The notes beneath the pieces were generated by a model. That model had not been told where the DNA came from. It was given only the letters and a program-made list of their open reading frames with translations, and did not search any database. Below are positions 27,600-46,237 of a DNA stretch of 64,000 nt, in pieces (within the stretch, counting starts at the first letter, position 1; every line of letters starts with the position of its first letter). Source of the DNA: Geosporobacter ferrireducens. Its GTDB lineage: Bacteria; Bacillota; Clostridia; Peptostreptococcales; Thermotaleaceae. The stretch is from assembly GCF_001750685.1 (NCBI RefSeq), contig NZ_CP017269.1, positions 248,001 through 312,000 on the forward strand, given 5' to 3'. The translations under genes were made by a program, and so were the position numbers.

Positions 27600-28406
27600 C
27601 TAAGCAGCCATATAGACGTTATATGGGATCTGATAATCGAGAGATTGATGCTTTCTTTCACGGTTATAAAAGTCCATGTACTCATCTACAAGGGCTCTAA
27701 GCTCACCCACTGTTTCATAAGCATATAGATAAAGTTTCTCTTGTTTTATGTTGCGAAAGAACCGTTCTGTTATGGCATTATCTGTGGCTCTGCCTTTTGA
27801 GTCCATACTAATCTTGATCTCTTGCTCTTTCAGTAGGCTAATGTAGTCATTGCTTGTAAATTGGCTACCTTGATCGCTATTGATAATTTCAGGCTTAGCC
27901 TTTGTAAATCCCCTTTTTAGGCATCTGAGAATAAAATCACACTCAAGGGTATTGGACAGCTGATAGTCTATAATTGTCCGTGAGTACCAGTCTATGATGA
28001 CGAATAGGTACATATGTCCCTTTGGCATAGGAATGTAGGTAAGATCTACTCCCCACACTTGGTTTACACGGGTAATTGGAACATTTCTGAGCAAATAAGG
28101 GTATATTTTATGCTGACGATTTCTCTTACTGAGATTGGGACCTGGATAATGTATTTTTAATCTCATAAGTCTCATGTATTTCTGGATACGTTTACAGTTG
28201 ACTTCATAGCCAAGCCCCTTTAATTCCTCAACCATTCGGCGAGAGCCGTAGTAGGGATGCTTCATGTGTATCAGATCAATTAATTGCATCAGAAGTATCT
28301 GAGAGCCATCTTTTGGCTTAGGTTGATAGTATGTTCCGGTTCGATTGATCTGCAGCAGTTCACATTGCCTTTTGATACATATTTTCCTAAAGTCAGGCTC
28401 TAACAT
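27600..28406 (-). CDS. IS3-family transposase OrfB (DDE integrase)
   Basis: 268 residues with an N-terminal HTH_21-type region (MKHPYYGSRRMVEELK) and an integrase core: first Asp in WGVDLTYIPM, second in INSDQGSQFTS, Glu in AITERFFRNIKQE. It is normally made as an OrfAB fusion by frameshifting from orfA, which ends 22 bp upstream; as written it has its own ATG. Confidence 0.92.
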   Translation of the reverse strand: MLEPDFRKICIKRQCELLQINRTGTYYQPKPKDGSQILLMQLIDLIHMKHPYYGSRRMVEELKGLGYEVNCKRIQKYMRLMRLKIHYPGPNLSKRNRQHKIYPYLLRNVPITRVNQVWGVDLTYIPMPKGHMYLFVIIDWYSRTIIDYQLSNTLECDFILRCLKRGFTKAKPEIINSDQGSQFTSNDYISLLKEQEIKISMDSKGRATDNAITERFFRNIKQEKLYLYAYETVGELRALVDEYMDFYNRERKHQSLDYQIPYNVYMAA

Positions 28407-36591: not shown

Positions 36592-37575
36592 TTAGAGATA
36601 TCCGTTGTGCAAATCGTAAGAAACCTCAGCATATACGCCCAGTGTACATTCGCTGACTGCGTTATATATACAGGACTGCAGATAACTTTTTGGACTTTTA
36701 ATTCTTTCTCGTTGGGAAGCCTCCCTATATTTGTCTAAGGCATATTCGATGATATAAGGCTTTAGCTTTATCAGCGCTTCCTTTACAGCCTTTCCGGGGA
36801 TCCATCTTTGCTGTACCTTAAGTTCCTTAGCAAAGTACATGTCTACCACAGCCTGTTTAACCGCATCTATTAAATCACTGTAGGTGCTGTACCTTTTCAG
36901 ATGATCGAATTCACAGCTTAAAAAGATCCTCTCCAGTTCTTTGTCTTCCGTCCTTCTGTCAGGGTTCTTTTCTTTAGGACTGACTGAAGGAACTATAAAT
37001 ATATCTGTAGTAATCTCTGTGTAGTCTCTGGTATTGGTAAGGACAGATTGTCCAACTCCATGAGGACAAGTTGTCCTATTGGATAAGGACAACTTGTCCT
37101 CATGAGCATTTCCAATGGTTTCACCACTGGACAATTTGTCCTCATGGGTGTTTTCAATAGTTTTAGCGTTTTTATTTTCAATCGAAGTTTTTTCTTTCAG
37201 AGATACTTTTTTTTCATTCTTTTTTTCTAATGCATCTAGAAGGATGTAGTCAATCCTATACCATTTTGTCTTATCATATTTTTTAACATTGTATCGATCG
37301 GTACTAATGAGTATCCCCAGAGATTCAAGATTACGGATCGTCCGCTGAATGGTTTTCGTACTCCAAAATGGAAACTGAGTGCGCCAATCCCCATAGCTGT
37401 TATAGACCCAGTAATACCCATCTTTATAGCAGTCCTTAGCCTGAGCCTTTTCTTTCAACCGAATCCAGTAATTGATCTGTTGTAGTACAATGGCTTCATT
37501 CAAACCCACCACTATTGCCAGTTGTGGCAGCAATACCAAAGGCTGCTCATCTAGTAACAGCTTACTTCCATTCAT
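36592..37575 (-). CDS. Plasmid/phage-type replication initiator protein
   Basis: 327 residues. The N-terminus (LLLDEQPLVLLPQLAIVVGLNEAIVLQQINYWI ... read in two parts) with WVYNSYGDWRTQFPFWSTKTIQRTIRNLE is the winged-helix initiator/DnaD-like start common in Firmicutes plasmids, ICEs and phages. The centre (about residues 135-185) is low complexity with two HEDKLS repeats, and the C-terminal 110 residues resemble a DnaD-like helical domain. The low-complexity part coincides with four palindromes (37041-37141), so the origin may lie inside the gene. Ribosome-binding site AAAGGGGGTG. Confidence 0.78.
   Translation of the reverse strand: MNGSKLLLDEQPLVLLPQLAIVVGLNEAIVLQQINYWIRLKEKAQAKDCYKDGYYWVYNSYGDWRTQFPFWSTKTIQRTIRNLESLGILISTDRYNVKKYDKTKWYRIDYILLDALEKKNEKKVSLKEKTSIENKNAKTIENTHEDKLSSGETIGNAHEDKLSLSNRTTCPHGVGQSVLTNTRDYTEITTDIFIVPSVSPKEKNPDRRTEDKELERIFLSCEFDHLKRYSTYSDLIDAVKQAVVDMYFAKELKVQQRWIPGKAVKEALIKLKPYIIEYALDKYREASQRERIKSPKSYLQSCIYNAVSECTLGVYAEVSYDLHNGYL
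37041..37141. repeat. Four GGACA-N3-TGTCC palindromes and a 19-bp hairpin inside the rep gene, candidate replication origin
   Basis: 13-bp palindromes at 37041-37053, 37064-37076, 37087-37099 and 37129-37141 share GGACA-NNN-TGTCC. The middle two lie in a perfect 19-bp inverted repeat (37059-37077 with 37086-37104, 8-nt loop). They fall in the low-complexity part of the initiator. Some plasmid rep genes (RepA_N type) carry the origin inside the gene, which this resembles. Confidence 0.8.
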
Positions 37576-37593
37576 CCTAGCACCCCCTTTATG

Positions 37594-37747
37594 AAGGTAT
37601 TACCTTTTCTGTTAAAGCGCTTTAGGTATAACTTTTTTACCAGATATTCTTTTATGGACCTGATATCTTCTTACTGGAGAAGGTATTACCTTTTTATCAT
37701 TTTACATTGCTCTACATGATGAATTTCAGGAGAAAAAGTAATACCTT
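37594..37747. repeat. Three AAGGTAnTACCTT palindromes between parR and rep
   Basis: Copies at 37594-37606 and 37680-37692 (identical) and 37735-37747 (one mismatch), plus a weak copy near 37622-37635. They fill the only non-coding gap of the replication/partition module (37576-37794) and could be the partition centromere, initiator iterons or an autoregulatory operator for rep. Confidence 0.7.
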
Positions 37748-37794: not shown

Positions 37795-38136
37795 TTATTT
37801 TCTGTTAACCGACTGCAGCATTCGTTTCAAATGCTCTATATCTACAATTTCTCCATAGTTTTGGGGTAAAGTTTTAGGCCTTATGTCACTTTTTTCATCT
37901 TTTGCTTGAAATATAGGGGATTGACATAAAGTTTCTTCTTTAAATTGACTTATTGCTTTTTGACCTTGTATTGTGTCCAGCATGAATTGAAGTTTGAGAG
38001 CTTTGGTTATCAACCCATTAATACTATGCTGCCTATTTATCCACTGATAGAAAAATCTCCCCTCATCTCCTTTCAGGACCGGCACCTTATAACTTATGAT
38101 AGAGCCTTTCGTTAGCTTTTTCTTTCTTATGGACAT
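37795..38136 (-). CDS. ParR-like DNA-binding partner of the actin-like ParM
   Basis: 113 residues, basic N-terminus (MSIRKKKLTKGS) and a short helix pair (NGLITKALKLQF) that could be a ribbon-helix-helix. The family is not proved by sequence, but the gene follows parM with its start inside the parM 3' end, exactly where ParR/Alp7R genes lie. It would bind the nearby palindromes and couple them to the filament. A TTG at 38145 is an alternative start. Confidence 0.65.
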   Translation of the reverse strand: MSIRKKKLTKGSIISYKVPVLKGDEGRFFYQWINRQHSINGLITKALKLQFMLDTIQGQKAISQFKEETLCQSPIFQAKDEKSDIRPKTLPQNYGEIVDIEHLKRMLQSVNRK

Positions 38137-38137
38137 T

Positions 38138-39304
38138 TTATTCAACCCCTAGGCACTCATCATATTCATCTGCATCGAATATCTCTGTTGATGCTCTTTC
38201 TTCTAATATTTCATTGATCTTTGTCTCTAAAAAATACCCTCTTGCATCCTCAAACAAAGGATCCATAGACAATTTTGTCGAGACTCCAGGTATAAAGTTT
38301 TCCAATCGTTCTTCGATGAAAGTAATTCCTCCCCCCGAAAAATATACAGCCCCTGCTTCTCCCGGAACAATGCCTCTTAATTCAAGCTGGTCAAAGAATC
38401 TTGTTTTCAGTAAAGCCAGCATATCCTCCATGGGTCTTTTACTAATACTCTCCAAATCTATGATATTTCCTTTATAACTTACCTTTTTATATTTTCTGAT
38501 TAGAAAATCCAGCTTTATTTTGGAAATATCGTATCCGTAATCCTTATACAATTGACTTCTCACTTGATTTAAGGCGTTAGCTGTTCCTACACTAATACCA
38601 AAAAAACCAGAAGAATCAAAGGTCATGTCCGGAAGCATCATTGCCACATCAGTAGTAGAGGATCCTATGTTTATACAAATGATCTTGTGGCCCTTTTCAA
38701 ATGCCCGAGTAATCTCCTCTTTCCTGCTCAAATCTTCTCCATAGGCCATTGAGATCATAGAGGCAGTTCCTTCAGGCTTAAAATACATCTTGGGAATCAC
38801 CACCTCAACTTCCGCTCCCTTAAATATTGGATGTAGGAATCTAACCTTATAGGGTTTTCTCATAATCTGTGCAAACTTCTCCAATACCTCGGAGTTTTCG
38901 AAATATTCCTCTGTGGGAGATCCGGTTCCCAATCTGAAAGCTGCTTTTTTATGTAAGTCTCTAACATCGAACTGTGAAAGCGCTAAATGGGTTACCATCT
39001 TTATGATCTCATCATAATTATGGTCTTCATACTCAAATTTAGGTATTCCACTGGCAGCCCACCGCAGATCTCCTCGATGGTGCTTGTAGGCCATTCCTCC
39101 GACAAAATATCTGCCTAAAAATTCTTCTTCCTGATAAACCTCCACATCCAAAAAATTTATGGTCTCACCCACTTCTTCTTCTAAATTTCTTCTTTCATAG
39201 CCGGAACAGATCGCATTCATATTAATGATTTTATGACCGCTGTCAATATACAGTTTGTTATTCAACCGGCCCGGGTCCCAACCCGCATTGATAAGATGGC
39301 TCAT
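38138..39304 (-). CDS. ParM/Alp7A-type actin-like segregation ATPase
   Basis: 388 residues. Seen: phosphate loop 1 near INAGWDPGRLNNK (Asp of the actin fold), the second phosphate-loop motif INIGSSTTDVAM, and the adenosine motif AVYFSGGGITFIEE, as in bacterial plasmid actins. The frame is open further to 39364, but GGGAAGGAGAA precedes the ATG at 39302-39304, which also avoids overlap with the upstream HTH gene. ParM filaments push plasmid copies apart. On an ICE it would help only if the excised circle replicates, which fits the initiator next door. Confidence 0.88.
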   Translation of the reverse strand: MSHLINAGWDPGRLNNKLYIDSGHKIINMNAICSGYERRNLEEEVGETINFLDVEVYQEEEFLGRYFVGGMAYKHHRGDLRWAASGIPKFEYEDHNYDEIIKMVTHLALSQFDVRDLHKKAAFRLGTGSPTEEYFENSEVLEKFAQIMRKPYKVRFLHPIFKGAEVEVVIPKMYFKPEGTASMISMAYGEDLSRKEEITRAFEKGHKIICINIGSSTTDVAMMLPDMTFDSSGFFGISVGTANALNQVRSQLYKDYGYDISKIKLDFLIRKYKKVSYKGNIIDLESISKRPMEDMLALLKTRFFDQLELRGIVPGEAGAVYFSGGGITFIEERLENFIPGVSTKLSMDPLFEDARGYFLETKINEILEERASTEIFDADEYDECLGVE

Positions 39305-39329
39305 ATATATTCTCCTTCCCAAATGAAAA

Positions 39330-39692
39330 TTAATGTCTATCTGCTGATAGCACCATAACGTCAATAATATGTTGTTTCTTTAGCAATGCAGCTTCGATAA
39401 AGCTTCCTTCAGCAGAAACTCTTTTTCTCTTTTCTTTTACCCAGCTTTTCTGATAGACTTTCCGTTTTTCTTGATTATCCGCCTTTCTTTTTACCTTTTC
39501 TTCTTCAAAGCCCGGCTGCTTTGTTAAATAGGTAGATATGGTTTTTCTTGTCACTCCTAGCGTTTCCGCAATCTTTCCGATTTTTAACCCTTCTTGAAAG
39601 AAAAGCGTTTTTGCCTCTTCCTGCCAGGGTTGTTGATTACCTATTTTTGTCGACGGTTTTTTGAGCATAGAAATACTTTGGCAGCATCCCAT
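39330..39692 (-). CDS. Small HTH DNA-binding protein upstream of parM
   Basis: 120 residues. A resolvase/Hin-type helix-turn-helix (EGLKIGKIAETLGVTRKT, residues about 33-50) precedes a very basic region (KRKADNQEKRKVYQKSWVKEKRKR). A longer frame begins at 39710, but AAAGGGGGATC suits the ATG at 39690-39692. Its place 25 bp before parM suggests a regulator of the partition/replication module. Confidence 0.7.
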   Translation of the reverse strand: MGCCQSISMLKKPSTKIGNQQPWQEEAKTLFFQEGLKIGKIAETLGVTRKTISTYLTKQPGFEEEKVKRKADNQEKRKVYQKSWVKEKRKRVSAEGSFIEAALLKKQHIIDVMVLSADRH

Positions 39693-44560: not shown

Positions 44561-46237
44561 ATGGCTACAGCAGGTATTTATGTACGAAAGTCCAAAGCTA
44601 CCGATAAAGGTGAATCTATAGAGAATCAAACAAAACGTGGGATATCCCTCTGTGAAATGCGTGGATGGGACTACATAATCTACGAAGACTATGACTTCTC
44701 TGGAAAGACTTTGGACAGACCAGATTTTGAAAGAATGATGAAAGACGCTAAGAATAGAAATATTGATTATATTATTTGTTACAAGCTAGATAGGATCTCT
44801 AGAAGCGTAAATGACTTTTCCTCCCTAGTTGAAGAATTAGACAGCCTCGGTGTAGGTTTTATTTGCATTAAAGATAACTTTGATACTACAAGTCCAATGG
44901 GTAGAGCTATGATGTATATTACCGCAGTATTTGCCCAACTAGAGCGTGAAACAATTGCCGAACGTGTTAGAGATAATATGATTGATCGAGCTAAAATGGG
45001 CAAATGGAATGGTGGGCCTGTTCCCTTTGGCTTCGACGTACAGAGAGATACCATTGTCACTAATGGGCGTAATAAGAAAACTTCAGCACTTACCATTAAT
45101 GTAGAAGAAGCTAAACTAGTTAAATTGTTTTATGAATGGTATATCCAAGATGAAGGGTCTATTCGCAGCAATACTTTCAGAGCAAATGATCCTATCAATG
45201 GATATAAAACAAAACATGGAGCTCTATGGAGTGATAATCAAATGTCGCGACTGCTACAAAATCCTATATATTGTATAGCCGATCAAGAGGCATATGAATA
45301 TTTTTCTACTCAAACTAAGGTTCAGATAATCAATCGTAGAGAAGATTTTGATGGTAGCCACGGCTTAATGTTTTATAATCGCAGAAAGCCGCACAAGAAA
45401 ACCTCCAGGGAGAGGGATGAAGAAGAATGGATTTTAGTAATTGGTGATCACCAAGGTATTATTCCCGGGGAAATGTATAAAAAGCTACAAAATAAGCTAC
45501 ATATCAACAAAATAAAAGCGCCTAGACATGGTCAGGGTCTTTCTTCCCCGCTTACTGGTTTAGTAAGATGTGGCAGATGTGGTGCAGCTATGTCAGTTTT
45601 CACTTCCAGAAAATCTAAGGATAAATCACAAGGGTTCTGGGCTTACTTCAGATGTATCTGCAGAGAACAAAAATCAAAATTATTATGTGATAATACAAAC
45701 GTAAGAGCTGATCTTCTGGAACAAATAGTAGTTGGACATATTAGCGGTCTGTGTAATAACAAAAACTTTATTACAGAGCTTCTAGAGGGCTCAAACGATG
45801 AGTTAGAGAACAATCGTATACCGCTTATTGCTAAAAGAAATAAATTACAATTAGAATTAGATGTTAATGATAAAGAAATGAAAAACCTAGTTATTGCGCT
45901 TGGTAAAGGTATTCTTCCTGAAATAGTTATTCAAAGCCGCTATAAGGAATTAGAAGATCAAAAAAAAGCATTAAAAAAACAACTTCAAGAAGTTGCCCTC
46001 GAATTAGAAAACAATTATTCTGAAACCTATAATATTGATATGGTAATGAAATACATAAATACTTTTAATGAGACCTATGAATATCTTACGATTGAAGAAA
46101 AGAAAAAACTGCTTAAGCAAATTGTTAAGGAAGTAAAAGTAGATAAGGATAAAGTTGAACTAACACTTTATTTTCTTCCCACTCAAGAGTTTAATGATTT
46201 ATCACTTTGCTCATACAAGGACAAGGATTCATACTAG
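44561..46237 (+). CDS. Large serine recombinase (integrase of the element)
   Basis: 558 residues. Resolvase domain with the catalytic Ser11 (IYVRKSK), [13 protein letters not shown] and [10 protein letters not shown]; the Recombinase linker with LLQNPIYC; a zinc ribbon ([13 protein letters not shown] ... CDNTNV); then a coiled-coil end. These enzymes integrate elements at short att sites by 2-bp crossover. The last seven residues (YKDKDSY) and the stop are read from comM sequence, so the C-terminus changes on excision. Strong AAAAGGAGG site. Confidence 0.95.

Follow-up and report, generated by a model that had tools for sequence, protein, structure and literature searches.

Palindromes inside a replication initiator gene as the initiator's very probable binding sites and a likely origin of a 95-kb integrative element

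Introduction

Initiator genes that carry the origin used by their own product are already known in kind. In phage lambda, oriLambda comprises four iterons inside O, whose starts are 20, 24 and 23 bp apart and which occupy more than one reading frame. The gene for the SPP1 initiator gp38 (gene 38) carries the origin that the protein binds, oriL (PMC6316719), and in phage 80alpha ori is embedded in the replisome-organizer gene, ORF20, deletion of which cannot be complemented in trans (PMC5499656). Among plasmids, pSK41 rep has four boxes in the centre of the gene, in the DNA that encodes the linker (PMC5703833); the RepA_N initiators to which it belongs (pSK41, pTZ2162) are ~320 aa long, with a winged-helix N-domain.

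Here we compare with these systems an initiator gene from Geosporobacter ferrireducens. It lies in a 64,000-nt stretch of contig NZ_CP017269.1 (positions 248,001 to 312,000), which we call the window and whose own numbering is used below. An original prediction, made from the sequence alone, had placed either the oriV of a mobile element or the initiator's own binding site in a cluster of palindromes inside this gene. The analysis below supports that placement, the binding through covariation and the origin activity by inference only.

Results

Domains and kinship of the initiator

The initiator gene (36592-37575, minus strand) is an open reading frame of 327 codons, encoding a protein of 327 aa. 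AlphaFold (AF2) confidently predicts a winged helix over residues ~1-135, with a recognition helix that begins at residue 73 (residues 73-86; 37318-37359, minus strand), placed from the AF2 helix and from the covariation of residues 74 and 77 described below. The linker at residues 138-189 is modeled as disordered (pLDDT below 50 over 138-148 and 150-189), and the C-terminal part, ~207-326, is helical and DUF6017-like, as judged from the AF2 model and a weak Pfam match (E 1.6e-4, below the cut-off).

By sequence, the N-terminal winged helix matches phage DnaD-like helicase loaders or replisome organizers (PHROG 6493, 11233 and 428; E 4.6e-35 to 7e-18). The helicase-loader match at E 4.6e-35 spans residues 4-155, and PHROG 6493 matches the N-terminal winged helix of 48/48 aligned relatives. 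Unlike these phage loaders, the window initiator resides on an integrative conjugative element and has the DUF6017-like C-terminal domain. O-like PHROGs match the same protein more weakly (E 9e-10). SPP1 gp38 and 80alpha ORF20 share the layout, but sequence kinship with gp38 and membership of ORF20 in the window initiator's family are not established.

The original prediction had also invoked RepA_N plasmids. By sequence this failed: Pfam gave no PF06970 match to the initiator up to E 1, and none in the whole genome, and we reject RepA_N membership on that basis while retaining the resemblance in fold. In a fold search with the N-domain, the best four chains were all N-domains of RepA_N initiators (4PQL, 4PT7, 5KBJ and 4PTA, one of them a DNA complex; Z 9.0-9.6, rmsd 4.0-4.6 over 105-113 residues), making these the closest solved fold, with DnaD at Z 7.6. 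Rows within 1 Z were tied with some unrelated winged helices; with such middling matches close behind the RepA_N chains, the fold alone is little proof. No significant PDB sequence match to the N-domain was found, and the fold search with the C-domain, whose query model was of moderate confidence only, returned no clear match, the pSK41 Rep C-domain fold included. A phage-like N-domain has been reported for the Rep of pUSA03-type plasmids (PMC5703833); we discarded that Rep as a yardstick, as it has no palindromic site like those of the window gene, nor is it closely related.

One gene in our collection (L006 and L509, the same gene; G009:C14) joins a RepA_N N-domain to a C-domain like that of the window initiator, and its linker contains five TGAAAGAATCTTTCA-type 15-bp palindromes at 23-bp spacing. 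The N-domain and origin might conceivably swap as one module. Among the 11 usable genes in a survey of RepA_N linkers, spaced palindromes were clear only in this one, a picture too patchy to generalize.

Four palindromes in the DNA encoding the linker

The window contains GGACA-N3-TGTCC four times, all within 37041-37141, against an expectation of 0.02 copies from dinucleotide shuffles, and the whole 5.8-Mb genome has just two further copies, each single and isolated. On the coding strand, these 13-bp sites encode EDKLS (site 1, GGACAATTTGTCC, 37129-37141), EDKLS again (site 2, GGACAACTTGTCC, 37087-37099), RTTCP (site 3, GGACAAGTTGTCC, 37064-37076) and GQSVL (site 4, GGACAGATTGTCC, 37041-37053), so that all three frames are used; the sites themselves are assigned no strand. 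Their starts on the coding strand are separated by 42, 23 and 23 bp, and all of the encoded residues fall inside the disordered linker. Shuffling the codon order of the gene yielded at most 1 site (in 3/5000 shuffles), and synonymous recoding of the linker protein yielded a mean of 0.10 and a maximum of 2 sites in 20,000 trials. These sites and the domain layout around them are shown by computation.

The array resembles that of lambda in having four sites at comparable intervals in more than one frame, and the lambda iteron consensus is close to CCTCA-N3-CGAGG; the lambda iterons are, however, longer (18 bp) and less symmetric, and there the helicase is recruited through phage P. The SPP1 sites differ in being direct repeats. 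The window gene fits the description of the lambda O type, with multiple DNA-conserved sites inside a coding sequence, and, like RepA_N genes, it has its binding boxes mid-gene, in the part that codes for the linker.

Most of what had been claimed for this cluster held. The four palindromes are exactly where predicted, far beyond chance, and two of them do lie within a perfect 19-bp hairpin: 19-nt arms at 37059-37077 and 37086-37104 are 100% complementary around an 8-nt loop, because each of these palindromes, together with its CATGA flanks, is an inverted copy of the other. The claimed HEDKLS repeats held only in part, since two of the sites encode RTTCP and GQSVL instead. The suggestion that DNA function shapes the codons held as well, with the protein repeats a by-product of the DNA rather than a separate constraint.

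Adjoining the array is an A+T-rich coding stretch (37141-37245, no strand assigned; 67-77% A+T in 60-nt windows, codons ~111-145). We regard it as a candidate unwinding element, a role that is inferred and weakly supported: upstream of the arrays the family mean is only 63% A+T, and support for such an element across the family as a whole is weak.

DNA is kept while the protein drifts

The closest relative is the initiator of Thermotalea metallivorans (L002/L020), with 62% amino acid identity. The original prediction held that homologues should show conserved DNA with drifting protein, and that absence of the palindromes from close homologues would count against it. The Thermotalea gene retains all four, spaced 42, 22 and 23 bp apart versus 42, 23 and 23 bp in the window, and all 40 palindrome arm bases are invariant in the DNA alignment. 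A one-base deletion before site 3 is compensated by a one-base insertion after site 4, such that these two sites are read in a different frame in the Thermotalea gene. Over the 69 nt in between, the DNA is 75% identical and the encoded proteins have no meaningful alignment. The conservation is thus of DNA, as the computation shows directly, and protein-level repeats are ruled out as its cause. The corresponding Thermotalea stretch no longer forms the perfect 19-bp pairing, and the hairpin is therefore rejected as the conserved unit. In blastn searches, similarity of the linker DNA reaches plasmids of Fructilactobacillus and Staphylococcus.

Arrays in the wider family

To look beyond this pair, we scanned 238 non-redundant initiator genes drawn from 477 loci. 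A prior core-free scan over spacer lengths had pointed to odd palindromes centred on 3 bp, and the survey scan made no assumption about the three bases ahead of the CA/TG core, the form common to the family being xxxCA-N3-TGxxx. With the array score threshold set at the level that no codon shuffle reached (0/714), repeated xxxCA-N3-TGxxx arrays were found in the linkers of 151/238 relatives (63%). Spacings were 22-23 bp in 230/353 cases and 45-46 bp in 52/353, and the arrays used two or three reading frames in 125/151 genes. The restriction to the linker is complete for perfect sites, with 223 in the linkers of these 151 loci and 0 elsewhere in them, including upstream of the gene.

For the remaining 37% of relatives, some of them truncated, divergent or with another motif, the site caller detected no array; it presumes a CA/TG core, and families with other cores are consequently missed. 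Phage-borne relatives, from Bacillota and others, have the same kind of in-linker palindromes, and a viral scan with the full-length initiator found one relative. In four genes (L097, L013, L138 and L156), the arrays mix GGA and GGT half-sites inside one site (GGACAAAATGACC); these may be intermediates in a change of specificity.

Half-site bases covary with the recognition helix

The variable half-site triplets differ by lineage (GGA, GGT, GCT, GAT, TGA, TGT, GTT, GTG, GGG, CGA, ACC and others), and they track the recognition helix, whose pattern is F-W-S-73-74-T-x-77-R. Base 3, next to the CA, is A with K or R at residue 74 (31/31) and G with D74 (13/13); it is mostly T when residue 74 is S, A, P, V or M, and C with N or R. 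The window initiator, with K74 and a GGACA half-site, is consistent with this pattern. Residue 74 ranks top of 113 columns for covariation with bases 3 and 2, as does residue 77 for base 1, the outermost, and these rankings hold after thinning to 75% and 60% identity.

As some loci are redundant or related, we also compared 86 disjoint sister pairs. Where base 2 had changed, residue 74 had changed in 26/26 pairs, versus 19/54 without a base change (p 3e-9); for base 3 the corresponding counts were 21/22 and 18/47 (p 3e-6). Base 1 was weaker in this test, residue 77 reaching p 4e-3 without being the top column. Thinning and sister pairs reduce the effect of kinship but do not fully remove it.

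In cross-validated prediction drawing only on relatives below 60% identity, residue 74 gave the correct base 3 for 69/76 thinned relatives (majority baseline 43, next best column 46), and residue 77 the correct base 1 for 65/83, versus a baseline of 61/83. Genes fetched later were consistent with the pattern: L520 (S74, GGT), L523 (R74 and E77, CGA) and L525 (K74 and E77, mixed CGA/GGA). L480 has E74, a residue outside the rule, and a GGT half-site.

Based on this covariation, we conclude that the four palindromes are almost certainly bound by the initiator that this gene itself encodes, without support as yet from any binding experiment. T73, K74 and Q77 are its putative base readers, predicted from the model and the covariation in the absence of binding data. 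The covariation, itself shown only by computation, is evidence of recognition and not evidence that the bound DNA is an origin.

The element and its neighboring genes

The initiator gene lies in an element of 95,269 bp, whose insertion point is the NPCPCG motif of a Mg-chelatase (ComM/YifB-like) gene. The end of a serine recombinase gene (44561-46237) adjoins the interrupted gene, the second half of which is 95 kb from the first; a 9-bp direct repeat, GGACAAGGA, bounds the element at both junctions (window 46219-46227 and G000:C1:198949), and joining the flanks restores an uninterrupted 519-aa Mg-chelatase frame. The element includes conjugation-type genes for a TraG-like P-loop protein (just under the cut-off), FtsK/SpoIIIE and T2SSE, as well as an IS-type rve (DDE) transposase gene (27600-28406, minus strand). 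With integrase, attachment duplication and conjugation genes all present, we classify it as an integrative and conjugative element, its transfer being inferred.

Upstream of rep are a small ORF (37795-38145, minus strand) and an adjoining ParM-like actin gene (38138-39364, minus strand), which probably form a partition pair. The ParM-like gene has a 71% identical, similarly placed counterpart in the Thermotalea element (G015:C16), and its conserved position beside rep fits a plasmid-like replicating phase. Between the partition genes and rep, AAGGTATTACCTT palindromes are repeated at 37593-37608, 37679-37694 and 37731-37747; they could be a centromere or an operator.

Discussion

Taken together, we consider it likely that the palindromes are both the initiator's iteron-like sites and the core of the oriV of this ~95-kb element. 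The origin activity is inferred by analogy with lambda O, SPP1 gene 38, 80alpha ORF20 and pSK41 rep, which are laid out alike.

The alternative that survives best is that the initiator does bind these sites, but that they act only as an operator or road-block or to control copy number, the true oriV being at another location. The evidence for binding, from the array survey and the covariation alike, cannot separate an origin from an operator. We nevertheless think this alternative unlikely: the sites are mid-gene, far from the promoter; the rest of each locus, the region upstream of the gene included, has none; SPP1 (PMC6316719) and pSK41 (PMC5703833) have in-gene sites that are the origin; and 80alpha ORF20 cannot be complemented in trans (PMC5499656).

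Binding by another protein, either a host or an element regulator, is very unlikely. GGACA-N3-TGTCC might, we infer, suit many dimeric regulators, but no result favors this explanation, the half-site bases covary with the initiator's own recognition helix above all other columns, and the sites are confined to the initiator linker across the 151 loci, the genome having only its two isolated others. We give equally little credence to the hairpin as an RNA or single-strand structure, such as a rolling-circle or single-strand origin: the perfect 19-bp stem at 37059-37104 speaks for it, but the conserved unit is the 13-bp site, the closest relative's stretch pairs imperfectly, and the family's arrays are built of 13-bp units at 22-23 bp. 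That the palindromes are a by-product of protein repeats or low-complexity coding is all but excluded, for although sites 1 and 2 share both a frame and the peptide EDKLS, three frames are in use, synonymous recodings average only 0.10 sites, and in the Thermotalea relative the equivalent DNA is translated in a different frame.

In the mechanism that we propose for the origin reading, the origin core would lie in the DNA coding for the initiator's disordered linker, and each 13-bp odd palindrome would be bound by winged-helix domains, one per half-site, GGACAANTTGTCC being the sequence that the N-terminal domain would bind. The variable bases flanking the invariant CA...TG would be read by residues 74 and 77, in the opening part of the recognition helix. 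Binding would be cooperative at four sites that lie on one face of the DNA helix, at intervals of about two or four turns, and would build a nucleoprotein complex; this may open the neighboring A+T-rich stretch (up to 77% A+T, though not strong across the family), and the C-terminal domain may recruit the host helicase or primase. Dimeric binding, melting, recruitment and origin activity are all inferred, with no binding or replication experiment behind them. Other such integrative elements use rolling-circle replication that starts at oriT. Given this, and the chromosomal integration of the 95-kb element, an oriV need not be used.

A bolder reading, which we also consider likely, is that of a broad initiator family of phages, plasmids and integrative conjugative elements, with the origin in the linker DNA and a compact recognition code. 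Under the proposed code, residue 74 would set the base next to CA (A with K/R, G with D, T with S/A/P/V/M, C with N/R). The outer base would be tracked by residue 77 (G with K/R, C with E). We found no earlier report of such a code in the literature searched, which did not cover subscription papers.

If this is true, the initiator alone would suffice, in this family, to find the origin and predict part of its sequence, and many unannotated phages, phage-plasmids and integrative conjugative elements could be assigned their origins and incompatibility groups from sequence. New origin specificities, and with them new compatibility groups, would come from paired changes inside a single gene. Because site and reader share that gene and the site is not tied to the protein's reading frame, the family would offer a clean natural system of protein-DNA co-evolution, and what looked like an oddity of a coding sequence would become a testable rule.
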